A DNA stretch of 55,566 nt from positions 1 through 55,566 of the forward strand of contig PUND01000124.1 of NCBI GenBank assembly GCA_003551645.1. The letters are read 5' to 3'. Below are positions 5,056-41,241 of the stretch, in pieces. Position numbers and translations under genes: made by a program. A model generated the notes under the pieces. It ran no database searches. It was not told the origin of the DNA and saw only the letters and a list, made by a program, of their open reading frames with translations. Within the stretch, counting starts at the first letter, position 1, and every line of letters starts with the position of its first letter. This DNA is from Phycisphaerae bacterium. Lineage in GTDB: Bacteria; Planctomycetota; Phycisphaerae; SM23-33.

Positions 5056-7968
5056 TCAGCGCAGCTTTTCCATCGCATCTTCGACCGCGGCCAGTTGCGC
5101 CTTCTGCTCGGCCAGGCGGTCGCGCTGCTGCCGGACGACCTCCGCGGGGGCCTTCTGTACGAAGTTCTCGTTCGAGAGTTTCTTCTCGGCCGATTCGATC
5201 GCCTTTCGCAGCTTGTCGGCCTCTTTGGACAGCCGGGACAGCTCCGCCTCGCGGTCCACCGCGCCGAGCACGTACAGCTTGACGGTCCCGACGGTGGCGG
5301 CCGCGGCGTCGGCCGGCGGCCGGTAGCCCGGCTTCTGGATGCTAAGCTCGCCCACCGACGCCTGCGAGCGGATAAGCGCGCCGTTGTCGGCGATAAACTC
5401 GGCCTCCCGGCCCTGGGCCTCTACCACCACGTCGGTGCTCTGGCTGCGCGGGATATTGTGCTGGGTGCGGACGTTTCGCACTTCGCGTATCAGGTCTCGC
5501 AGCGTCTCAAACCGCTGCTCCAGCGCGGGGTCGATGCATGCGGCGTCCGCACGCGGCCATTGTGCCCGCACGAGCATCGGCTCGGCCGTGGCGTTGTCAG
5601 GCCCGCGGCGGGGTGCGACCTCGTTGAGCCGCTGCCAGACGGCCTCGGTGATAAACGGCACAACCGGATGCAACAGCCGCAGAAGCCCGTCCAGCACATA
5701 AGCAAGCACCGCCCGGGGGGCATTCTCGCCGGAGTTGATGCGGGCCTTGGCGATCTCCAGGTACCAGTCGCAGAAGTCGTCCCACATGAAGTGGTAGAGC
5801 GTCTCGCCAAGCTCGTTGTAGCGGTATCCGGTCAGCGCCCGCGTGGCGTCGCGGGCGGCGGAGTGGAAGCGGCTGAGTATCCAGGCGTCGGATATGTTCG
5901 CGTGCGGCTCGATGTCCGAAAGCGGCGGGGCGCCCGAGAGGTTCATCATCGTAAACCGCGCGGCGTTCCACAGCTTGTTGCAGAAGTTCCGGCCCTGGTC
6001 GAACTTCGGGCTGGTGTTGGCCTTGCGACCGTCGGGCAGGGTCATCTCCTCCACAGGCATGCGGACGTCCTGGGTCTGGGTAGTCATGCTGACCAGCGTG
6101 AAGCGCATCGCGTCGGCGCCGTGGCTGTCGCTGATGGTCAGCGGGTCGATGCCGTTGCCCAGTGACTTGGACATCTTCCGTCCTTGGCCGTCCTGGATCA
6201 TCGCGTGGATGAACACATCCCGGAAGGGGATATCGCCCAGGGCGTACTGGCCCATCATCACCATCCGCGAAACCCACAGCGTGATAATCTCCCTGGCTGT
6301 AACAAGCACATCACCTGGATAGAACGTCTCCAGCTCCGGTGTTTCCTCCGGCCAGCCCAGCGTGCTGAACGGCCAAAGAGCCGACGAAAACCACGTGTCC
6401 AGAACGTCCTCGTCCTGCTGCCAGCCGGAATCGGCCAGTTGTTGTTCCAGCTCTTCGTTATCCGGGCCGAGGCAGACAAACGTAACCTTGCCCGTATCTG
6501 TCTCGGCGTGGCGGACGCCGACGGCCTCGATGCCGGCAGGCGGCTCATGCTTGCCTTCCTTGCGCCAGACGGGTATCCGGTGGCCCCACCAGAGCTGTCT
6601 GCTGATTGGCCAGTCGCGGAGGTTTTCCAGCCAGGTCTGGTAGGTCTTCGCGTAGCGGTCCGGGGTGAATCGCAGCCGCTTGTCCAGCAGCGGCTTCAGC
6701 GCCAGCCCGGCCAGCGAGTTGACCGGCACGTCGGTTCCCTCGATGTTGCCGGTTCCGAACGCCTCGGCCAGGCGGTCTATCGGTTCCTTGATGGCGATGT
6801 ACCACTGGTCGGACAGGTACGGCTCTATGGGCACGTGGCTGCGGTAGCTGTGGCCGACCTGGTGGACGTATTCACGGACATCGGCCAGCAGGTTCTCGGT
6901 GCGGAACCACTCGACTATCGCCTCTCGTGCCTCGAAGCGGTCCATACCGAGGAACTGCTCGGCCTCGGTGCCGGCGGCATCCGGCCAGCCGTGACGGTCC
7001 GAGATGGTCCCGTCCGGCGCCAGCACGTTGACCACAGGCAGCTCGTGGCGGCGGCCTATCTCCCAGTCGTTGGGGTCGTGTGCGGGCGTTACCTTCAAAA
7101 AACCGGTGGAGAACTTCGCCTGCTCATCGTCGCTGTCGGGGTTGGGCAGCACCACGTGCTCGTCGGCGATAATGGGTATCTCCCTGCCGACCAGCGGCAG
7201 CCGGACCATCTTGCCAAGCAACCCGGCCGCTCGCGGGTCGGCTGGGTTCATCGCCACGGCCGTGTCGCCGAGCATGGTCTCCGGGCGGGTGGTGGCGACG
7301 GTAACGTGCTCGACGGTCTCGCCCACGATCTCCACCGGCTCGGCCAGCGGATATCGCATGTAGTAGAAGTGTCCGTGGACCTGCTCGTGCTCGACCTCGT
7401 CGTCGGCGAGCACCGTCTGTGTGGCCGGGTCCCAGTTGACCAGCCGCTTGCCGCGATAGATAAGCCCGTCGGCGAACAGCCGGAAGAACATCTCGCGGAC
7501 GGCCCGGGCGCAGACTTCGTCCATGGTGAACCGCGTCCGCCGCCAGTCGCAGGAGCAGCCGATTTGCTTGAGCTGCCCGAGGATGCGTTCTTCGTATTCA
7601 TCCTTCCACGCCTGGACGCGCCGCACAAACTCATCCCGCGGGAAATCCGTCCGGCGTTTGCCCTCTTCGGCGAGTATGCGCTTCTCGACGACGGTCTGGG
7701 TGGCGATTCCGGCGTGGTCGGTGCCCGGCATCCAGAGCGTGTTGAAGCCCTCCATACGCTTCCAGCGGATGAGCACATCCTGCAGTGTGTTGTTCAGGGC
7801 GTGGCCGAGGTGCAGTACGTCGGTGACGTTTGGCGGTGGTATGACTATGCAGTACGAGCTTCCTCGCCCGTCCGGCTCGGCGCCAAAGGCGCCCCGCTCG
7901 GTCCACATCAGATAGATGGTTTCCTCGACCGATTTCGGGTCGTAGGTCTTGGCCAGTTCCGTCGTCAT
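5056..7968 (-). CDS. valS: Valyl-tRNA synthetase
   Basis: 970 residues, full length. It charges tRNA-Val and edits mischarged threonine. Visible in order: the class I HLGH motif at residues 53-56 after PPPNVTDVL; the large editing (CP1) insertion with TTRPETMLGDTAVA; a KMSKSLGNG motif near residue 560; the anticodon-binding helical domain; and a C-terminal coiled-coil arm (about 900-970) typical of ValS. The usual PPPNVTG has Asp in place of Gly. The ATG overlaps the cimA stop codon as ATGA at 7965-7968, so the two are very likely co-transcribed and translationally coupled. Expression should therefore depend on read-through of the isoleucine attenuator upstream of cimA. Confidence 0.97.
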   Translation of the reverse strand: MTTELAKTYDPKSVEETIYLMWTERGAFGAEPDGRGSSYCIVIPPPNVTDVLHLGHALNNTLQDVLIRWKRMEGFNTLWMPGTDHAGIATQTVVEKRILAEEGKRRTDFPRDEFVRRVQAWKDEYEERILGQLKQIGCSCDWRRTRFTMDEVCARAVREMFFRLFADGLIYRGKRLVNWDPATQTVLADDEVEHEQVHGHFYYMRYPLAEPVEIVGETVEHVTVATTRPETMLGDTAVAMNPADPRAAGLLGKMVRLPLVGREIPIIADEHVVLPNPDSDDEQAKFSTGFLKVTPAHDPNDWEIGRRHELPVVNVLAPDGTISDRHGWPDAAGTEAEQFLGMDRFEAREAIVEWFRTENLLADVREYVHQVGHSYRSHVPIEPYLSDQWYIAIKEPIDRLAEAFGTGNIEGTDVPVNSLAGLALKPLLDKRLRFTPDRYAKTYQTWLENLRDWPISRQLWWGHRIPVWRKEGKHEPPAGIEAVGVRHAETDTGKVTFVCLGPDNEELEQQLADSGWQQDEDVLDTWFSSALWPFSTLGWPEETPELETFYPGDVLVTAREIITLWVSRMVMMGQYALGDIPFRDVFIHAMIQDGQGRKMSKSLGNGIDPLTISDSHGADAMRFTLVSMTTQTQDVRMPVEEMTLPDGRKANTSPKFDQGRNFCNKLWNAARFTMMNLSGAPPLSDIEPHANISDAWILSRFHSAARDATRALTGYRYNELGETLYHFMWDDFCDWYLEIAKARINSGENAPRAVLAYVLDGLLRLLHPVVPFITEAVWQRLNEVAPRRGPDNATAEPMLVRAQWPRADAACIDPALEQRFETLRDLIREVRNVRTQHNIPRSQSTDVVVEAQGREAEFIADNGALIRSQASVGELSIQKPGYRPPADAAAATVGTVKLYVLGAVDREAELSRLSKEADKLRKAIESAEKKLSNENFVQKAPAEVVRQQRDRLAEQKAQLAAVEDAMEKLR

Positions 7969-9584
7969 CTTGCCGATGGCTCCTGTTGCTGCCGGTCGCT
8001 GCCGAGTTCGGTCAGCAGCTTGTACTCAACGGCGTCCACCAGCGCCAGCCAGGACGCCTCTATGATGTTCTCGCTGACGCCGACGCTACCGAAATAGGCC
8101 TCTCCGCGGGCGTCGTGCCAGTCGATGACCACGCGGACCTTCGCGGCGGTCTCGGCCTGGGTGTTGACCACGCGGACCTTGTAATCCACCAGGTGCAGGT
8201 CGTCAACGCGGCGGTAGTGCGGGCGCAGCGCCGAGCACAGCGCCTTGTGCAGCGAATCGACCGGACCGTCGCCGGCGGCGACGGTGTGTTCCTGCGCGCC
8301 GTCTATCGTCAGGCGGACGATCGCCTCGGTGTCGGCCTCGGCGGCGTCCTGTTTGAAGATAACGCACCTGTAATGGTCCAGCTCCCACAGCTTGCGGTAC
8401 CACCTGCCGCCAAGTATGCGGCGGATAAGCACGTTGAAGCTCGCCTCGGCCGCCTCGAACTGATAGCCCTCGGACTCCAGTTGCGTAAGCTTCTCCAGGA
8501 CCTTCCTCTGGGCGTCCTTGTCCCGGCCTATGTCGAACTCCGCCGGCGCCAGTGCCGCGATGTTACTAACCCCGGAGACCTCGGATACCAGTATTCGGCG
8601 GGTGTTGCCGACGGTCTCCGGCTCCATGTGCTCGTAGGTGGTGGCGTTGCGCCGTACTGCGTGAACGTGCATGCCGCCCTTGTGGGCGAACGCGGCCGCC
8701 CCGACGAACGGCTGGTTCTCCCGCAGGTTCAGGTTCGCCACCTCATAAACGAATCGGCTGACCTCGGTAAGGTTCCTCAGCGTGCCCTCTCGCAGGCAAG
8801 TATAGCCGTACTTCAGGGCCAGGTTCGGTATCACCGCCGTCAGGTCGGCGTTCCCGCATCGCTCGCCGATGCCGTTTATGGTTCCCTGCACCTGCACCGC
8901 GCCGTGCGTCACCGCGGCGAGCGAGTTCGCCACGCCCACGCCGGCGTCGTTGTGGCAGTGGACGCCGAGCTTCACATCGCCGAGTTCGGCGCGGACGATA
9001 TCGACCGCCTCGGCGACCTGCTGCGGAAGGGCGCCGCCGTTGCTGTCGCAGAGCACCAGTCGCGTGGCCCCGGCTTCCATCGCCGCGCGCAGAGTATCCA
9101 AGGCGTATTGGCGATTGCCGCGCAGCCCGTCGAAAAAGTGCTCGGCGTCGTAGAACACCTCGCGTCCCTGACCGGTCAGAAAAGCCACCGAGTCGGCGAC
9201 CATCGCGAGGTTCTCATCCATGCTCACCCGCAGCACCTCACGGACGTGCATGTCCCAGCTCTTGCCCACCACCGTTACCACGGGCGTGTCGGCCGCCAGC
9301 AGGGCCTTCATGCCGGCGTCCTGGTCGGCCGGGAGGTCACGCCGACGGGTCATGCCGAAGGCGACGGGCGTGGAGTGTTTCAGCCCGCGGCCGCGAACGT
9401 CGCGGAAAAACGCCTCATCCTTGGGGTTGCTCAGCGGGTATCCGCCCTCGATGTAATCGATGCCCAGCCGGTCCAACGACTCGGCTATCAGCAGCTTGTC
9501 CTCCAGCGACAAGCTGACGCCCTCGGCTTGCGCGCCGTCTCGTAGCGTGGTGTCGTAGATTTCGACTCGTCTGTTGTGGTTCAT
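7965..9584 (-). CDS. cimA: (R)-citramalate synthase, isoleucine biosynthesis
   Basis: 539 residues from the ATG at 9584, with GGAGG 9 bases upstream. It is a DRE-TIM metallolyase of the LeuA/homocitrate synthase superfamily: YDTTLRDGAQAEG near the start, VHCHNDAG (metal-binding HxH) in the middle and NGIGERCGNAD, followed by a C-terminal LeuA-type allosteric domain with GDGPVDSLHKAL. The DGAQAEG variant and closeness to the long citramalate synthase type favour acetyl-CoA plus pyruvate to citramalate, the threonine-independent entry to isoleucine. The upstream leader peptide, with six Ile codons, independently supports isoleucine rather than leucine synthesis. A separate, typical leuA lies at 35005-36549. 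It is translationally coupled to valS. Confidence 0.93.
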   Translation of the reverse strand: MNHNRRVEIYDTTLRDGAQAEGVSLSLEDKLLIAESLDRLGIDYIEGGYPLSNPKDEAFFRDVRGRGLKHSTPVAFGMTRRRDLPADQDAGMKALLAADTPVVTVVGKSWDMHVREVLRVSMDENLAMVADSVAFLTGQGREVFYDAEHFFDGLRGNRQYALDTLRAAMEAGATRLVLCDSNGGALPQQVAEAVDIVRAELGDVKLGVHCHNDAGVGVANSLAAVTHGAVQVQGTINGIGERCGNADLTAVIPNLALKYGYTCLREGTLRNLTEVSRFVYEVANLNLRENQPFVGAAAFAHKGGMHVHAVRRNATTYEHMEPETVGNTRRILVSEVSGVSNIAALAPAEFDIGRDKDAQRKVLEKLTQLESEGYQFEAAEASFNVLIRRILGGRWYRKLWELDHYRCVIFKQDAAEADTEAIVRLTIDGAQEHTVAAGDGPVDSLHKALCSALRPHYRRVDDLHLVDYKVRVVNTQAETAAKVRVVIDWHDARGEAYFGSVGVSENIIEASWLALVDAVEYKLLTELGSDRQQQEPSAR

Positions 9585-9643: not shown

Positions 9644-9677
9644 AAAAAAACCCCGAAGCTTTAGTCTCGCCTCAGGG
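9644..9677 (-). terminator. Attenuator terminator upstream of cimA
   Basis: On the minus-strand RNA, 9677-9670 (CCCUGAGG) pairs with 9658-9651 (CUUCGGGG) over 8 bp with two G-U pairs and an 11-nt loop. Seven U residues follow at 9650-9644. It lies between the leader peptide stop (9714) and the cimA start (9584). Its 5' arm is also the 3' arm of the alternative antiterminator. Confidence 0.85.
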
Positions 9678-9719
9678 CCTGCGGTGTCGGCTGGTTTACC
9701 GGCCGGTTCCGCCCTAAGG
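9670..9719 (-). promoter_or_regulatory. Antiterminator pairing of the isoleucine attenuator
   Basis: RNA segment 9719-9711 (CCUUAGGGC, which includes the leader stop codon UAG) can pair continuously over 9 bp with 9678-9670 (GCCCUGAGG), with one G-U pair. The second segment is the 5' arm of the terminator, so the two structures exclude each other. A ribosome stalled at the Ile codons (9752-9732) would leave the first segment free. A ribosome at the stop codon would cover it. Confidence 0.75.
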
Positions 9720-9824
9720 CGCGCAGCTTACAATGATTATGCCGATAATGATGCCCGCGCGGACGCCGACCGGCGGGTCCGAAGACCCGCTCAGGGCCGG
9801 GAGATTGCCTCGCATCGTCCGCAT
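9714..9824 (-). CDS. Isoleucine-rich leader peptide of the cimA-valS operon
   Basis: A 36-codon ORF from ATG 9824 to TAG, with GAGGAG ending 5 bases before the start. An in-frame second ATG lies at 9815. The C-terminal part reads AGIIIGIIIVSCAP: six Ile and one Val within eight codons, using ATC, ATT and ATA. The ORF lies between a good promoter and an overlapping antiterminator/terminator pair. That is the layout of leader peptides that sense charged tRNA (known for ilv, leu, his, trp and thr operons in other phyla). It is too hydrophobic and short to suggest an enzyme, and its function is inferred to be purely regulatory. Confidence 0.8.
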   Translation of the reverse strand: MRTMRGNLPALSGSSDPPVGVRAGIIIGIIIVSCAP

Positions 9825-9872
9825 CTCGGCTCCTCATCGCTGCGCGCCGATAGCGCTGAACCTGCCATTGTG

Positions 9873-9900
9873 ATTATATCGGCAGGGGTGATATCGTCAA
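9873..9900 (-). promoter_or_regulatory. Promoter of the cimA leader
   Basis: On the minus strand a -35 TTGACG (9900-9895) is followed by a 16-bp spacer and a perfect -10 TATAAT (9878-9873). Transcription would begin near 9866, about 40 bases before the leader ATG at 9824. Confidence 0.75.
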
Positions 9901-10003
9901 TTCACTTTCCCGCCCGTTTCCGCCGCGGGGCTTTGTGGAAAGCAGGGATTCAGGGGATGCATGGGATGGTTGTTGAGAAAAAAGCAACTTCCGGCGCCCC
10001 GGG

Positions 10004-10086
10004 GTTTCGAGCTTCGGATTTGTTTCGGATTTCGAGCTTCGGGTTTCGTATTTGTTTCGTATTTCGAGCTCCGAGTTTCGGATTTC
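10004..10086. repeat. Degenerate short repeat cluster (TTTCGAGCT...)
   Basis: TTTCGAGCT occurs at 10005-10013, 10030-10038 and 10062-10070, each followed by TTCGG/CCGAG and TTT-rich spacers such as ATTTGTTTCG. The composition (many TTTCG steps, locally AT-rich) differs sharply from the surrounding genes. It looks like an interspersed repeat family expanding and decaying in intergenic DNA. Confidence 0.65.
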
Positions 10087-10171
10087 CCCTGTAAGTGGCC
10101 ACAACTGGACGTTCGGTCCGGCTGGTAGTATAAAGGCAGTTGTGTTTTCCCACAGCCGAAGGAGTGAATTC

Positions 10172-26244: not shown

Positions 26245-27651
26245 GTGTTCCAGACCGAAGACACGATAGTCGCCATATCCTCACCGTCCGGGGCCGCCGC
26301 GCGCGGAATAGTTCGGCTCAGCGGCGATTATGCCGCGCCCGTCGCCGCACAGGTGTTCCGGGGGGATGTCCCGCTCGATAGAGTAGGCGGATTTCGTATG
26401 GTTGACGGTCTTGTAAGCTTGCCGCCGGGGCCGATGGTATTCCCCGCAAGGGCGCAGGTGTTTCGCGCCCCGCGAAGCTACACGCGCCAGGACGTGGTCG
26501 AACTCCATGTGCCTGGATCGGTGGAAGTTACCACGGCCGTGCTGGCGGCGCTTATCGACGCCGGTGCAAGGCAGGCGCTTCCTGGGGAGTTCACCGCCAG
26601 GGCGTTTTTTTCCGGTCGGCTGGACCTTTCACGGGCCGAGGCGGTGGCCGACGTCATAGACGCCGCCGATGATGCGATGCTTCGCTCGGCGTCGGCTGCA
26701 CTGGGCGGTCGGGTGCACCGTCTGTGCGAGTCGGCCGCGGCTAGATTGACCGAGATGCTGGCGACGGTCGAGGCGTCCATCGATTTGGCCGGCGAGGACA
26801 TCCGTCTTGAATCGCCGGCCGAGCTTTCCAGTCGGCTTCAGGAGCTTTCCGGCTGCCTGCATCGCGTCGCCGCCGAGGCAGTCGATGTGCCCGAAACCGG
26901 CGAGCTTCCTCACATAGTGCTCGCCGGTCGCCCGAACGTAGGTAAAAGCTCGCTGCTGAACACGCTTACCGGAACGGACAGGGCGATTGTGTCGGCTCTT
27001 GCGGGCACGACGCGCGATGTACTAAGCGCCACGCTGGTCCTCGGCGGCGGCGCGGCGGCTGTGCTTTCGGACGCGGCCGGCTTCGCCCCGGCGGGGGATG
27101 ACCTTTCGGCGGCGATGACGTCGGCCGCACGCGCCGCGGTCGCGCGGGCCGACGCGGTGGTGCTGGTGGTGGACCTGTCGGCCGAGGACTTCCGGCCGGA
27201 TTTGGAGCTGTATCACGAGGTCCGGGCCGTCAACCGTCGCTCGCCGGTGCTCCTGGCCGGCAACAAGACGGACCTTGTCGGCGCGGGCCGGTCGCGGCTG
27301 GAATCGCTTGCCGCGGAGCTTGGCGTGCCGGCAGTCGCAACCAGTGCGGTAAACGGCGAGGGGCTGGCCGCCCTGAAGCAACACCTCTCGGATGCGCTGC
27401 ATCTGACGCCGACCGACGGCTCGGAGCACATGGCTCTGCACGTGCGGCAGAAGAGGCGCCTGCTTGATGCGGCTTCGGCCGCCGCCAGGGCTGCCGGGCT
27501 GCTGTCTGACCGCGGGGAGGTCGCCGACTCGGCCGAACTCGTCGCCGTCGAGCTGCGCGAGGGGCTTTGGCGGCTGGGCGAGATAAGCGGCGAAGTCGTA
27601 ACCGAGGATGTCCTCGGAAACATTTTCTCAAGGTTCTGTGTGGGCAAATAG
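26245..27651 (+). CDS. mnmE: tRNA modification GTPase MnmE
   Basis: 468 residues from GTG 26245. With MnmG it adds the carboxymethylaminomethyl (or related) group to wobble uridine of some tRNAs. The N-terminal tetrahydrofolate-binding domain begins [22 protein letters not shown]. The inserted G domain has [14 protein letters not shown], then DAAGF (DTAGL position) and GNKTDL (G4). The C-terminus ends RFCVGK, the conserved Cys-x-Gly-Lys tail required for modification. All elements of a functional MnmE are therefore present, in contrast to the paralogue at 40060-41241. The partner mnmG is not in this window. Confidence 0.95.
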
Positions 27652-35004: not shown

Positions 35005-36549
35005 CTATGGCTGCGGCGGCTTCTGTCGGTCGCCGTTGGTCCGGGTGGCGGCGCGGTTGACCGCCGAGAGGAACGCCCGCGCCGAGGCCTCCACTATGTC
35101 GGTGCTGACGCCGCGCGTGCGGAACCGCCGGCCGTTGTGCTCGACCTCGATGGTAACCTCGCCCTGGGCGTCCTTTCCGGAGGTTATCGCCCGCAGTGAG
35201 TAGTCCACCAGCTCCAGCGAGACGCAGGTTATCCGCTGTATCGCCTCGTACACGGCATCGACCGGCCCGTCCCCGGTGGCGGCGTCGGTGAGCCGCTCGC
35301 GGTCTCGCATCACGGTAACGGTGGCGGTCGGCACGGTGTTGGACCCGGCCGTGGTCTGAACACCCTGGAGCGTCCAAAGCTCGGAAGTCCGCTCTATCTG
35401 CTCGTCTATCAGCGCCTCGATGTCGGCGTCGAAGACGTGCTTCTTCTTGTCCGCCAGCGTCTTGAATTTCTCGAAGGCGTTGTCTATCTGCTCGGTTTCC
35501 AGCGAGTAGCCCAGCGCCTCGATGCGCTGCTTGAAGGCATGGCGGCCGGAGTGTTTGCCGAGCACCAGGCGGCTGGGCGGCACACCGATGTCCTCGGGCC
35601 TCATTATTTCATATGTCTCGCGGTTGGCCATTACGCCGTGCTGATGTATGCCCGCCTCGTGGGCGAAGGCGTTCTCGCCGACGATTGCCTTGTTCCGCTG
35701 GACGTGCAGGCCGGTTACCGACGAGACCAGCCGGCTGGTGGGGTAGATGCGGCTGGTGTCCACGCGGCAGTCGGCGTTGAAGAAGTCGCGGCGGGTCTTT
35801 ATCGCCATGACGACCTCCTCCATTGAGGCGTTTCCGGCCCGCTCGCCGATGCCGTTGACGGTGCACTCAACCTGTCCGGCCCCGGCGTGGACCGCCGCCA
35901 GCGAGTTCGCGACGGCCAGTCCGAGGTCGTCATGACAGTGCACCGATATCACTGCCCGATCGATGTTCGGTACGTTCTCACGCAAATGCCGTATCAGCGC
36001 GGCGAACTGCTCGGGCATGGCATAGCCGACGGTGTCCGGGATGTTCACGGTGGTTGCGCCGGCGTCGATGACCGCGCGGGTTATCTCCACCAGGAAGTCC
36101 CACTCGGTCCGCGAGGCGTCCTCGGGCGAGAACTCCACGTCGTCGGTGTGGTTGCGGGCCTGGCGAACCGCATCGACGCTCATGCGGACTATCTCTTCCT
36201 TGGCCCGCTTGAGCTTGTGGCGGCGGTGGATCTCGCTGGTGGCGCAGAAGACGTGAATCCTCGGCCTGGCCGCGCCGCTGACCGCCTCCGCGGCGGCCGA
36301 GACGTCCGCCTCGAGCGACCTGGCAAGCCCGCAGACCGCCGAGTCGCGCATCTCGCTTGCGACAGTCCGCACCGCCTCGAAATCGCCCTTGCTGGCCGCG
36401 GGGAAGCCCGCTTCGATAACATCCACGCCCAGCCGTTCCAGCGCGCGGGCAAGCTCGACCTTCTCGGTAAGGTTCATACTGCAGCCCGGCGACTGCTCGC
36501 CGTCGCGAAGCGTGGTGTCGAAAATCGTTATGTTGCGTTGTTCGCCCAT
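35005..36549 (-). CDS. leuA: 2-isopropylmalate synthase, leucine biosynthesis
   Basis: 514 residues from the ATG at 36549, with AAGGAG 7 bases upstream; an ATG at 36555 is too close to that site. It joins acetyl-CoA to 2-ketoisovalerate, the first committed step to leucine. Signatures are FDTTLRDGEQSPG, SVHCHDDLGLAVAN, and NGIGERAGNAS. The C-terminal third is the LeuA allosteric domain, with GDGPVDAVYEAIQR and a conserved REIT-like stretch, consistent with leucine feedback. Typical length. It is preceded by a leader peptide with eight leucine codons and a terminator, so leucine-tRNA levels should control its transcription. Confidence 0.97.
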   Translation of the reverse strand: MGEQRNITIFDTTLRDGEQSPGCSMNLTEKVELARALERLGVDVIEAGFPAASKGDFEAVRTVASEMRDSAVCGLARSLEADVSAAAEAVSGAARPRIHVFCATSEIHRRHKLKRAKEEIVRMSVDAVRQARNHTDDVEFSPEDASRTEWDFLVEITRAVIDAGATTVNIPDTVGYAMPEQFAALIRHLRENVPNIDRAVISVHCHDDLGLAVANSLAAVHAGAGQVECTVNGIGERAGNASMEEVVMAIKTRRDFFNADCRVDTSRIYPTSRLVSSVTGLHVQRNKAIVGENAFAHEAGIHQHGVMANRETYEIMRPEDIGVPPSRLVLGKHSGRHAFKQRIEALGYSLETEQIDNAFEKFKTLADKKKHVFDADIEALIDEQIERTSELWTLQGVQTTAGSNTVPTATVTVMRDRERLTDAATGDGPVDAVYEAIQRITCVSLELVDYSLRAITSGKDAQGEVTIEVEHNGRRFRTRGVSTDIVEASARAFLSAVNRAATRTNGDRQKPPQP

Positions 36550-36612
36550 CTTCATGCTCCTTCGCCGGCTGACTCTAGATGATTCGTCCATCCGGCCCAG
36601 CCGTGACGAGAT

Positions 36613-36680: not shown

Positions 36681-36740
36681 TCAGCGCAGCAGGAGCCCGG
36701 TAAGTAGCAGCAGGCCCAAGCTGTTCGTCTGACGAATCAT
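36681..36740 (-). CDS. leuL: Leucine-rich leader peptide of leuA
   Basis: A 19-codon ORF, MIRQTNSLGLLLLTGLLLR, ATG at 36740 and TGA ending at 36681, with AGAGGG just upstream. Eight of the last twelve residues are leucine, encoded with TTG, CTG, CTA, CTT and CTC, including codons that should be rare in this GC-rich genome. It sits between a promoter and an attenuator and matches leu leader peptides of enteric bacteria in design. It is too small for a catalytic product. The role is inferred: ribosome stalling on low leucyl-tRNA prevents the terminator. Confidence 0.88.
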   Translation of the reverse strand: MIRQTNSLGLLLLTGLLLR

Positions 36741-37889: not shown

Positions 37890-40106
37890 ATGCAGGATCT
37901 TCTTGCTGACCTTAACGAACCCCAGCGTCGCGCGGTTACACACGTTGACGGGCCGCTGCTGGTGCTTGCCGGCGCCGGTTCGGGCAAGACCCGAGTCATC
38001 ACCCGCCGGGTCGCCTGGCTGATCCACAGCGGCATCCCGCCCTGGAACGTGCTGGCGATTACCTTCACCAACCGGGCGGCCGGGGAGATGGCACAGCGGG
38101 TCCGCGAACTGGAAACACCCCGAGGAGCGACGGTCTGCACCTTCCACTCGCTCTGTGCCCGCCTGCTGCGGGAATTCGCCCCAGAGGCGGGACTCAGCCA
38201 GAACTTCTCAATCTACGACCGCGCAGACCAGCTTAGATTGCTCAAGGAAGCGATAGAACGGCTGGACATTCCAACCGGCGGGCTGACCCCGGCCAAGGCG
38301 CACTCGGCCGTCTCGCGGGTAAAAAACTCGCTGAAGACGCCTCAGGCCTTCGCCGACGAGGCCGCCGGACCGCGCGACCGGGCGCTTGCGGAGATATACG
38401 ACCAGTACGAGCGGCTGCTGGCCGGCAACAACGCCCTGGATTTCGACGACCTGCTGCTTCGGATGGCGATGCTGCTTCGCGACCGTGACGATGTGCGCCG
38501 GGCGCTGGGCGAGCGTTATCGTTACGTCCTGATAGACGAATACCAGGACACCAACCACGCCCAATACCTCATCGCCCACGCCATCGCCATGGAGCACGAG
38601 AACATCTGCGTAACCGGAGACCCGGATCAGAGCATCTACGCATGGCGCGGCGCGGATATCACCAATATCATGGACTTCGAGCACGACTACCCGAACGCCG
38701 TGGTCGTCCGGCTGGAGGAGAACTACCGCTCGACGGCGCCGATACTGGCCGCCGCTTCGCGACTGATAGCACGCAACCGGCTTCGCAAGTCCAAGTCGCT
38801 GTGGACTATGCGCGAGGGCGGCAGGGAGGTCCGGGTCGTTACCTGCGACGACGGTTCTGCCGAGGCGGAGATTATCGCCGAGCGCATCGCCGCCCACCGC
38901 CGCGCGGGAGGGGCGCTGGAGGATGTGGCGGTCTTTTACCGTGTCAACGCGCTTTCGCGGCAGGTGGAGGAAACGCTGCTGAAGCGCGGCATCGCCTACC
39001 GCATCGCCCGCGGCACGGAGTTCTACAACCGCAAGGAGGTCAAGGACGTCCTGGCGTACCTGAAGCTGCTGGTAAACCCCGCCGACGACCTGAGCTGCCT
39101 GCGGGTTATCAACACTCCGGCCCGTGGCATCGGCGCCACGACCATCGACCGGCTCCGGGCGTTCGCCGAGTCCGCCGGCTGCCCAGTGCTCGAGGCCTGC
39201 CGACGCGCCGGGGCGGAAAACCTGGGAAAGGCCGGCGCGAAGCGCTCGGCCGCCTTCGCCGGGATGATCGCCTCACTCGCCGCAAGGGCCGACGCCACGG
39301 TACGGGAAACCATCGAAGAAGTCATAGCCGCAACCGGGCTGGAGGAGGCCCTTTCCAAACAGGATGAGGAAAGCCGCCAGGCCAGGTCGAACGTCGAGGA
39401 GCTTATCTCGACGGCCGCAGACTTCGACCGTACCGTCGGCGGCACGTTGGCCGACTATCTCTACCAGGTATCGCTGGTCAGCGACGTGGACCACTTTCAG
39501 GGCGGCGGCGGGGCGGTGACGCTGATGACGCTGCACGCTGCGAAGGGTCTGGAGTTTCCCAAAGTGTTCATCATCGGCTGCGAGGACGGGCTGCTGCCTT
39601 TCAAACGCGACCATGCCCCGGCCGAAGACAGCGACGTCGAGGAAGAGCGGCGGCTGCTTTTCGTCGGCATGACCCGGGCCATGAACGAGCTTACCCTCAC
39701 GCATGTCCGCCGGCGGGTGCGGCGCGGCAGGGGAGAGTCGCAGATTGTCTCGCCGTTTATCGTCGAGCTTGGCGGCGAGCACGTCGTTACCGAGGATCAG
39801 ACCACCGGTCTGCCGCATTCGTCTTCTGCGGCGGCGCGGTACAGCCGCGGCGGCTTCTACGCGCCCAACGCCGAGCGAAAGGCGATAGAGGCCTTGTACG
39901 ACGAGCACGAACAGCCCCTGCCGCCGGAGTATGAGCATCTGCGCAGTGGCTGCCGCGTCAGGCATCCGCGGTTCGGGGAGGGGAAGGTCCTGCGGCTAAG
40001 GCAGCCCTGGCCGGAAACCAGGGCCGAGATAGTCTTCGACGACTTCGGGCCTAAGACGATCAAGCTCTCGGCGACGTCGCTCGAGCTTGTCGGTCAGTGG
40101 GACTGA
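37890..40106 (+). CDS. pcrA: UvrD/PcrA-type superfamily 1 DNA helicase
   Basis: 738 residues from the ATG at 37890, with GGAGG 4 bases upstream; a longer frame to 37749 is rejected. It unwinds DNA 3'-5' during repair and replication. Helicase motifs in order: GAGSGKTRVITRR (I), ITFTNRAAGEMAQR (Ia), LIDEYQDTNHAQ (II), GDPDQSIYAWRGA (III), VRLEENYRS (IV), TLMTLHAAKGLEFP (V) and EEERRLLFVGMTRAM (VI). Length suits UvrD/PcrA, and a C-terminal tail (about 640-738) includes a typical GCRVRHPRFGEGKVL segment. The 3' end overlaps the convergent MnmE-like gene by 47 bases. Confidence 0.95.
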   Translation: MQDLLADLNEPQRRAVTHVDGPLLVLAGAGSGKTRVITRRVAWLIHSGIPPWNVLAITFTNRAAGEMAQRVRELETPRGATVCTFHSLCARLLREFAPEAGLSQNFSIYDRADQLRLLKEAIERLDIPTGGLTPAKAHSAVSRVKNSLKTPQAFADEAAGPRDRALAEIYDQYERLLAGNNALDFDDLLLRMAMLLRDRDDVRRALGERYRYVLIDEYQDTNHAQYLIAHAIAMEHENICVTGDPDQSIYAWRGADITNIMDFEHDYPNAVVVRLEENYRSTAPILAAASRLIARNRLRKSKSLWTMREGGREVRVVTCDDGSAEAEIIAERIAAHRRAGGALEDVAVFYRVNALSRQVEETLLKRGIAYRIARGTEFYNRKEVKDVLAYLKLLVNPADDLSCLRVINTPARGIGATTIDRLRAFAESAGCPVLEACRRAGAENLGKAGAKRSAAFAGMIASLAARADATVRETIEEVIAATGLEEALSKQDEESRQARSNVEELISTAADFDRTVGGTLADYLYQVSLVSDVDHFQGGGGAVTLMTLHAAKGLEFPKVFIIGCEDGLLPFKRDHAPAEDSDVEEERRLLFVGMTRAMNELTLTHVRRRVRRGRGESQIVSPFIVELGGEHVVTEDQTTGLPHSSSAAARYSRGGFYAPNAERKAIEALYDEHEQPLPPEYEHLRSGCRVRHPRFGEGKVLRLRQPWPETRAEIVFDDFGPKTIKLSATSLELVGQWD

Positions 40107-41241
40107 CCGGGCCGGTGAGCAGTTCCTCCAGCGAGGCGTTGAGTTCGCCGGTGTTCGTCCGCCCGGCGGCCTCGGCCGCGCGGCCGAGCAGGCGCGCCTG
40201 TCGCTGCGTGAAGGCCCGCGGCTTGGCCGGGTCGAAGTCGGAAAGCCCCAGTTTGGTCACCATCGCCTGTCGCAGCGCATCCAGTCCGTCGCCTGTCTTC
40301 GCCGAGACCGCCACTTCGGCTTCGGGGCAGGGGGCTTCGGCGTCCGACTTGGACGAAACCAGCAAAGTCCTGTCCCGCGGACACCACGCCGGCGGCGGAT
40401 CGGCCCGGCCCGGACGGACCAGCAGGATCAGATCCGCACGGCTCAGACGCTCGCGCGCTCGGCGGACCGCCTCGGCGTCCTCAGTCCGGCTTCGCTCACC
40501 GCAAGCGGCGCCTCCCGGCCGCCAGATGCCCGCGGTATCCGTCAGCCAGATGGGGACCCCGTCTATGATCGCCTCGGCCCGGACCCAGTCGCGAGTGGTC
40601 CCGGGGGTCTGGTGGACTATGCTCACGGGCCTTCCGACAATGGCGTTGGCGAGTGCGCTTTTCCCGGCGTTGGGCGGCCCGGCCAGCACCACCTCGGCGG
40701 CGTTGAGCAGCCGACGCATGGCCGTCAGGCCATCGGCGGCCCGGAGCAGGGCGTCCGGTGCGGCGGGCGTTTCACGCGCCAGCGCGCTTATCCCGCCGGA
40801 CCACTGCGCGGCAAGCGCCTCGGCCGCCAGCCGGCCGCGGGCCTGTGGCAGAAGGTCCAGCATCTCCCGCCCGATGGCGGGGTTTTCCCATCGCGGATGG
40901 ACGATCGGCAGGTCGGCGATGCCCGCCTCTTCCGGCGGCACGATTTCCGCCCCTTTCGCCGCCAGCAGCTCCAGCATGGACCGCAGCACCTGCGGGCCTC
41001 CGTGGACCTGCAGCTCGACGGAATCATCCGTCCGGCAGACGAGGGCCTCGTCAAGCAGGCGGTTGCCGGAAACGACGTGTCCGAACTGGAGCTTGCCCTT
41101 TCCCGGGCGTCCGGACCGCAGCGGACGGAACGTCTCGGCCAGCAGGTCTTCGGCCCCGTCGCCGGAAACGGCTATTACGGCTATGCCCCCGCGGCCCGGC
41201 GGCGTGCGGAGCGTCGCAATAATCCGGTGCTCCGCCGTCAT
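40060..41241 (-). CDS. MnmE-like GTPase paralogue lacking the C-terminal CxGK motif
   Basis: 393 residues. The N-terminal TrmE domain begins RIIATLRTPPGRGGIAVIAVSG. The G domain has P-loop GPPNAGKSALANAIVG, a DTAG switch (WLTDTAGIWRP), and a G2 threonine in TPGTTRDW. The G4 position, normally NKxD, reads SSKSD. The C-terminus ends TGPVSPTDRQ without the FCIGK tail that MnmE needs for tRNA modification. It is therefore probably a GTP-binding protein of a different role. It is the fourth gene of rpmA-obgE-coaX-this, only 8 bases after coaX, and its end overlaps pcrA. A genuine mnmE exists at 26245-27651. Confidence 0.8.
   Translation of the reverse strand: MTAEHRIIATLRTPPGRGGIAVIAVSGDGAEDLLAETFRPLRSGRPGKGKLQFGHVVSGNRLLDEALVCRTDDSVELQVHGGPQVLRSMLELLAAKGAEIVPPEEAGIADLPIVHPRWENPAIGREMLDLLPQARGRLAAEALAAQWSGGISALARETPAAPDALLRAADGLTAMRRLLNAAEVVLAGPPNAGKSALANAIVGRPVSIVHQTPGTTRDWVRAEAIIDGVPIWLTDTAGIWRPGGAACGERSRTEDAEAVRRARERLSRADLILLVRPGRADPPPAWCPRDRTLLVSSKSDAEAPCPEAEVAVSAKTGDGLDALRQAMVTKLGLSDFDPAKPRAFTQRQARLLGRAAEAAGRTNTGELNASLEELLTGPVSPTDRQARATSPRA

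Follow-up and report, generated by a model that had tools for sequence, protein, structure and literature searches.

Does the DNA lying ahead of cimA, the gene for citramalate synthase, in a Phycisphaerae bacterium (Planctomycetota) carry a switch in which a ribosome stalling on isoleucine codons decides whether the gene is transcribed, and if so, which genes does this switch control? The question arose from a first-pass annotation of a 55,566-nt stretch of DNA (contig PUND01000124.1 of assembly GCA_003551645.1, positions 1 to 55,566, referred to here as the window), in which a promoter, a 36-codon leader ORF with six Ile codons and one Val codon within eight, a 9-bp antiterminator and an overlapping 8-bp terminator followed by seven U were described upstream of cimA and read as an isoleucine attenuator, the leader being taken as an argument that the gene makes isoleucine rather than leucine. 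When the sequence was re-examined, the observation was confirmed, since every element listed is present on the minus strand. The interpretation is also supported, although the mechanism is inferred from sequence and the response to amino acids is untested. The features identified are given in the table.

Features of the window around the cimA leader and elsewhere (L numbers denote loci; positions in nt)
Position	Strand	Feature	Basis or remark
9873-9900	-	sigma-70-like promoter TTGACG-16-TATAAT	11 of 12 consensus positions; 0.3 such sites expected in the 1.5 kb scanned
9830-9835	-	Shine-Dalgarno-like GAGGAG, 5 nt before the leader ATG	read by eye
9714-9824	-	leader peptide ORF, ATG 9824 to TAG 9714, 36 codons, MRTMRGNLPALSGSSDPPVGVRAGIIIGIIIVSCAP, ending in AGIIIGIIIVSCAP before the stop	similar leaders in relatives
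9816-9822	-	5' arm of start-codon-proximal stem P1 (GCGGACG)	pairs with 9765-9759
9759-9765	-	3' arm of stem P1 (CGUCCGC)	just before the Ile run
9729-9752	-	control codons AUC AUU AUC GGC AUA AUC AUU GUA (IIIGIIIV)	six Ile and one Val in eight codons
9711-9720	-	region 2, antiterminator 5' arm GCCUUAGGGC	contains the leader stop UAG; pairs with 9678-9669; L001: -21.0 kcal/mol against -12.9 in shuffles, p 0.005
9669-9678	-	region 3, GCCCUGAGGC	shared by antiterminator (with 9720-9711) and terminator (with 9659-9650)
9669-9677	-	terminator 5' arm CCCUGAGGC	pairs with 9659-9651
9651-9659	-	region 4, terminator 3' arm GCUUCGGGG	
9644-9650	-	U7 tract of the intrinsic terminator	
7965-9584	-	cimA, citramalate synthase, 539 aa	TIGR00977
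5056-7968	-	valS, valine--tRNA ligase, 970 aa	NF004349, 1080.7 bits; overlaps the end of cimA by 4 nt
35005-36591		leuA	
36681-36740	-	Leu-rich leader MIRQTNSLGLLLLTGLLLR before leuA	terminator down to 36613, ending in U7
10000-10090	-	imperfect short repeats of the type CGAAACCCGAAGCTCGAAATCCGAAAC	between the promoter of cimA and the divergent FAD-dependent oxidoreductase-like gene
26245-27651	+	ORF that looks like an MnmE/TrmE GTPase	named by eye
40060-41241	-	second ORF that looks like an MnmE/TrmE GTPase	named by eye

The stems proved to be slightly longer than first described: the antiterminator has 10 pairs instead of 9, and the terminator has 9 pairs plus a possible G-U instead of 8, with a loop of 9 nt. 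The terminator was not listed by a simple terminator scan, the definition of which allows only loops of 3-8 nt. The region 9860-9640 folds 3.7 SD below shuffled sequences. The leader is the only ORF of 10-60 codons in the window, on either strand, with at least 5 Ile in 8 codons, whereas 40 first-order random sequences of the same length gave 0.025 such ORFs each on average, and none with at least 6. Boxes similar to the promoter (TTGAC...TATAAT) can be read by eye ahead of the leaders of the related loci L009, L023 and L031.

Which genes lie behind the leader? The first gene is identified as a citramalate synthase by TIGR00977 (672.4 bits, cut-off 450), and its score with the 2-isopropylmalate synthase model leuA_bact is well below the cut-off (266.8 against 598.7 bits). 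The first-pass annotation missed the fact that cimA overlaps valS, so that the device heads a cimA–valS operon; it also missed the Val codons as part of the code in valS-linked relatives, the recurrence of a start-codon-proximal stem and the related elements before ileS and ilvB. The separate leuA of the window has its own Leu leader, the only ORF of 10-60 codons in the window with 7 or more Leu in 10, and this is a second amino-acid attenuator in the same window; among 18 relatives whose leuA upstream DNA was listed (one cut short), similar Leu leaders are clearest in L229, L230 and L233. In the genome, which is about 94% complete, no protein exceeded the cut-off of the one threonine-deaminase model tried (TIGR01127, best 60.2 against 378.75 bits), which fits isoleucine made from citramalate.

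Conservation of the Ile-rich ORF and of both stems upstream of cimA orthologues had been proposed with the original observation as the way of putting it to the test, and this comparison came out positive in many relatives, but not in all of them. cimA was found in 53 of 60 genomes, the window's own included, and leaders of the form MRT...VRAGII...VP recur. In an alignment of 23 chosen loci, 94.2% of the antiterminator cells and 94.8% of the terminator cells pair, against at most 62.4% and 63.3%, respectively, when slid by one column. Covariation inside this close alignment is modest: two pairs in each stem show changes on both sides, and shuffles reached the covariation score in 7 of 500 cases (antiterminator) and 45 of 500 (terminator). 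The compensatory changes include U-A to C-G in 4 sequences at one antiterminator pair and A-U to G-C in 2 at another. Stem P1 (AUGCGGAC with GUCCGC) recurs, a G-C pair being replaced by A-U on both sides in L038 and L007 and broken by one mismatch in L025, although no formal pair count was made. As regards the 1:2 protector or pause stem, 80% of the cells were paired, which is weak support and does not settle whether such a stem exists. The covariance model R1 hit 11 of the 20 same-family genomes listed in a scan of the class, one of these hits lying before ileS.

To examine whether the device extends beyond the family, cimA upstream regions were collected from relatives, from named GTDB genomes (the best 80 of 580 confirmed relatives, 20 of these 80 loci being non-planctomycete, 15 from Omnitrophota and 5 others) and from a phylum sample in which 76 of 196 genomes matched and loci were obtained for 30 and then for 40 of the other 46. 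Of the 201 loci placed (the leuA locus L002 being left out), 191 were distinct and 3 had less than 200 nt upstream, leaving 188. In short ORFs ahead of these genes, Ile is enriched (at least 4 in 8 codons: 47 loci, shuffles 3.0; at least 5: 22 against 0.1), and so is Val (17 against 2.3; 9 against 0.1), whereas the other 18 amino acids show nothing of this size, the next being Pro (26 against 14.9) and Lys (6 against 2.8). Seventy-four loci, none of which is among the 20 non-planctomycete ones, have a high-scoring Ile/Val leader with a terminator. The region around each leader stop fits its own terminator arm better than the arms of other loci (-15.0 against -11.5 kcal/mol, 0 of 5000 permutations; also with one locus per distinct arm, n=60), although the arms differ between groups: CCUUAGGGC in the window's family, GGUAGGG in Phycisphaeraceae and CGGGGUC in Gemmata relatives. 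Taken singly, 42 of the 74 reach p<=0.05 against shuffles and 32 do not (including several in Gemmata relatives, for example L084 p 0.34 and L076 p 0.20), and a locus's own antiterminator region is among the best 10% of partners in only 24 of 74. Only 118 of the 188 regions have a terminator-like hairpin by the definition used, many valS-linked relatives have no detectable leader, and an Ile leader (Ile>=3) with a terminator was found in 62 of 188 loci; the device is therefore common, but not universal.

Do the Val codons follow the presence of valS? Among 66 leaders with known context (8 of the 74 having unknown linkage and being left out), 32 of 37 with valS within 1.5 kb carry at least 2 Val in the 12-codon control stretch, against 3 of 29 without (Fisher p 3e-10), and the effect remains within loci of 50-66% GC. 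When leaders were chosen on Ile alone, the figures were 18 of 29 against 1 of 28 (p 2.2e-6). With the cimA tree, for which stops inside the cimA matches were written X, and GC content as a covariate, PGLS gave +2.0 Val, p 1.9e-6 at the fitted lambda of 0.62, but p 0.047 under strict Brownian motion (lambda 1). Linkage changed at least 6 times on the tree, 2 of these changes being forced by starred branches; only 2 independent pairs could be drawn on starred branches (1.4 the same way, 0.1 opposite), too few for a test. Of five predictions written down beforehand, four held (genomes G046, G047, G056 and G048), while the fifth (G055) was not confirmed, as no valS lay in the 813 nt left on its contig; G047 and G056 belong to one family, as do G046 and G055, and in G048, the confirmed negative, no valS at all was found at the threshold of the search. 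That search gave a valS match at E<=1e-120 in 23 of 26 genomes with cimA taken as unlinked. In relatives of Gemmata sp. IIL30 fetched later, 14 new valS-linked leaders with terminators were seen, of which 14 have at least 1 Val and 12 at least 2 in their last 22 codons, whereas the one new unlinked leader with a terminator has none; 8 repeats of earlier loci and one of unknown linkage were removed by eye, the 14 belong to one group and several are near-copies. The unlinked L325 has an ORF with 6 Ile and 2 Val, but no terminator was found.

Elements related to this leader also occur ahead of other genes. Model R1 gave 43 matches in 35 of 150 genomes of the class, of which 15 lie at cimA loci already known, 20 were fetched and 8 weak ones were not looked at. 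Of the 20, 5 precede cimA, 6 precede ileS (L256, L257, L258, L263, L264, L272; E 3e-11 to 4e-4), 2 precede ilvB (L262, L265; E 4e-7 and 3e-5), and one each precedes a DAHP synthase gene (L260), a gene that looks like serS (L269, no fitting leader seen) and a MATE transporter gene (L270); the 4 others (L267, L271, L274, L275; E 2.8e-5 to 3.7e-3) look like chance. A family search bore the names ileS and ilvB out, with TIGR00392 over cut-off in five of the six ileS (the sixth is cut off at 222 aa, 257 bits) and TIGR00118 over cut-off in both ilvB. In the window's own genome only the cimA copy matched, and no leader was seen at ileS either by eye or in an ORF listing.

These data are best explained, with high confidence, by a classical ribosome-mediated transcription attenuator controlling the cimA–valS operon by the supply of charged Ile-tRNA, with charged Val-tRNA as a second input. 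In this view, a ribosome starting on the leader would stall at the control codons, upstream of region 2, when Ile (or Val) tRNA is short; region 2 would then pair with region 3, the terminator could not form, and RNA polymerase would read on into cimA and valS. When Ile and Val are plentiful, the ribosome would reach the UAG inside region 2 and mask it, region 3 would pair with region 4, and transcription would end at the U7 tract. Without any translation, stem P1 and a short pairing of the bases before the Ile run with region 2 would also favour termination. The analysis establishes the anatomy, its recurrence in relatives and the association between Val codons and valS, while stalling, the alternative folds in the cell, termination and the response to amino acids are inferred, as no transcript or translation data were examined and read-through under amino acid limitation was not measured; the mutual exclusion of the two stems likewise rests on complementarity and position only. 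The finding is, by all sequence tests available, a leader-peptide attenuator, and it extends leader-peptide attenuation to a phylum and to genes (cimA, valS and ileS) for which no example turned up in our searches of open-licence papers.

Among the alternatives, the one that survives best, although we consider it unlikely, is that the attenuator senses isoleucine only, the Val codons being by-products of base composition or of stem pairing and the link with valS reflecting shared ancestry. The window's own run, with six Ile and a single Val, the scarcity of independent pairs, the strict Brownian result and the valS-linked loci L138, L141, L142, L077 and L181, which have a single Val in the control stretch, would all be in keeping with this view. 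On the other hand, the effect persists with GC as a covariate at the fitted lambda and within the restricted GC range, Gemmata relatives show up to 7 Val in 12 codons in sequence contexts unlike the window's, the valS-linked leaders with terminators fetched afterwards carry Val, and in one genome with a separate valS, valS itself has a Val-rich ORF upstream. It is much less likely that termination is constitutive or Rho/translation-coupled, the leader ORF setting basal expression (for instance by reinitiation) without sensing amino acids. Reinitiation at leader ORFs is proposed for many bacteria, Planctomycetes included, in a study that counts leader ORFs near genes (PMC4833913), but that proposal rests on leader-gene distances of 10-11 bp, whereas here the stop ends 129 nt from cimA with a terminator between them, and it does not explain the Ile/Val specificity or the Leu leader at leuA. 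A riboswitch or T-box binding tRNA or a ligand directly, the ORF being incidental, is very improbable: sequence conservation across the family alignment is considerable, but no Rfam family other than a tRNA gene matched the window at the gathering score, none but a tmRNA was matched in 20 related loci, and outside the family the stem sequences differ while Ile/Val ORFs persist. A chance ORF and hairpin, in favour of which there is only the lack of experiment and the absence of a detectable leader in many relatives, can practically be dismissed, since conservation beyond chance, the result that would refute this reading, was found in the amino acid enrichment and in the matching of leader-stop regions with their own terminator arms.

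How does this element compare with systems already described? The ilvBNC attenuator of Corynebacterium glutamicum and the ilvB-II motif (PMC11857589; PMC10272879) share with it a leader ORF rich in branched-chain codons (ilvB-II), an antiterminator and a terminator, with a third hairpin acting as an anti-antiterminator in C. glutamicum, but they head ilvBNC in Actinobacteria, whereas here cimA–valS is headed in Planctomycetota, with related copies before ileS and ilvB in other genomes of the class. The ilvB-OMG and Leptospira ilvB motifs (PMC10272879) also have candidate leader ORFs with branched-chain codons and are proposed attenuators; they are associated with ilvB, and the Rfam scan of the window found no family but a tRNA. 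The proteobacterial leader attenuators (ilvGMEDA, ilvBN, leuABCD, pheST, thr, his and trp) follow the same region 2/3/4 logic, several amino acids can be sensed by one leader, and pheST shows that a synthetase operon can be controlled in this way; the genes and the phylum differ, and no sequence relation was tested. T-boxes control synthetases such as firmicute valS and ileS by tRNA charging, and translational T-boxes of actinobacterial ileS have been described (PMC1262725), but they involve direct tRNA binding without a leader peptide, and no T-box match was found here. In 2010, leader peptide systems were stated to be known from Proteobacteria and Actinobacteria, to which Firmicutes were added (PMC2965389). 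Our full-text searches, which covered open-licence PMC papers only and were judged mostly from titles and the beginnings of abstracts, yielded no description of an attenuator of cimA or of leader-peptide attenuation in Planctomycetota, nor any example of such attenuation for valS or ileS.

If these readings are correct, a broader picture, which we regard as somewhat more likely than not, is that in Planctomycetota the codon make-up of a leader peptide evolves in step with the content of the operon behind it: Ile alone for cimA, Ile plus Val once valS joins, and in some genomes a Val ORF before a valS that stands apart, related leader elements before ileS and ilvB making up a tRNA-charging regulon. 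Such loci would offer natural experiments in which the regulatory code can be compared with operon content. In this picture, because such attenuators sit before cimA in Gemmata, ribosomes there must translate nascent RNA beside RNA polymerase for at least these genes. This bears on an open dispute, since Gemmata obscuriglobus has been reported to separate transcription from translation (Gottshall et al. 2014, as cited in PMC6554331, PMC5287468 and PMC6212462). G. obscuriglobus itself was not identified among the genomes looked at, but as attenuation works only if a ribosome follows the polymerase closely, the attenuators conserved in Gemmata relatives give a direct genetic test of coupling at defined genes.

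Other leader-like ORFs were observed ahead of related genes. Of the 22 upstream regions of valS read in genomes with cimA taken as unlinked, one (L284, genome G182) has an ORF MRQPAVVVVVVTS with six Val codons in a row, and six carry short ORFs without a U-run, ending in VAVS (L287, L290, L291, L297, L305) or VAVG (L304). The recurring VAVS ORFs are followed by a GC-rich stretch and lie in several cases very near a TATAAT-like box, but since they lack a U-run, they were not accepted as classical attenuators. In the window's own genome, an ORF ending in LLALPALRVVVVRRAAAQWSA, with four Val codons in a row, precedes ilvB (L279), with no clear terminator seen by eye. The R1 match at L270 (genome G283, E 3.7e-4) has an Ile-rich ORF MKPYIDIIPIIAVAGGGCA with a terminator-like hairpin ahead of the MATE-family gene (TIGR00797 over cut-off). 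At L260 (genome G257), upstream of the DAHP synthase gene (NF006421 over cut-off), a leader translated by eye ends in LGFWRRWYYFYSFGHGGS, with eight aromatic codons, and is accompanied by a terminator-like hairpin, which makes it look like an aromatic-amino-acid attenuator.
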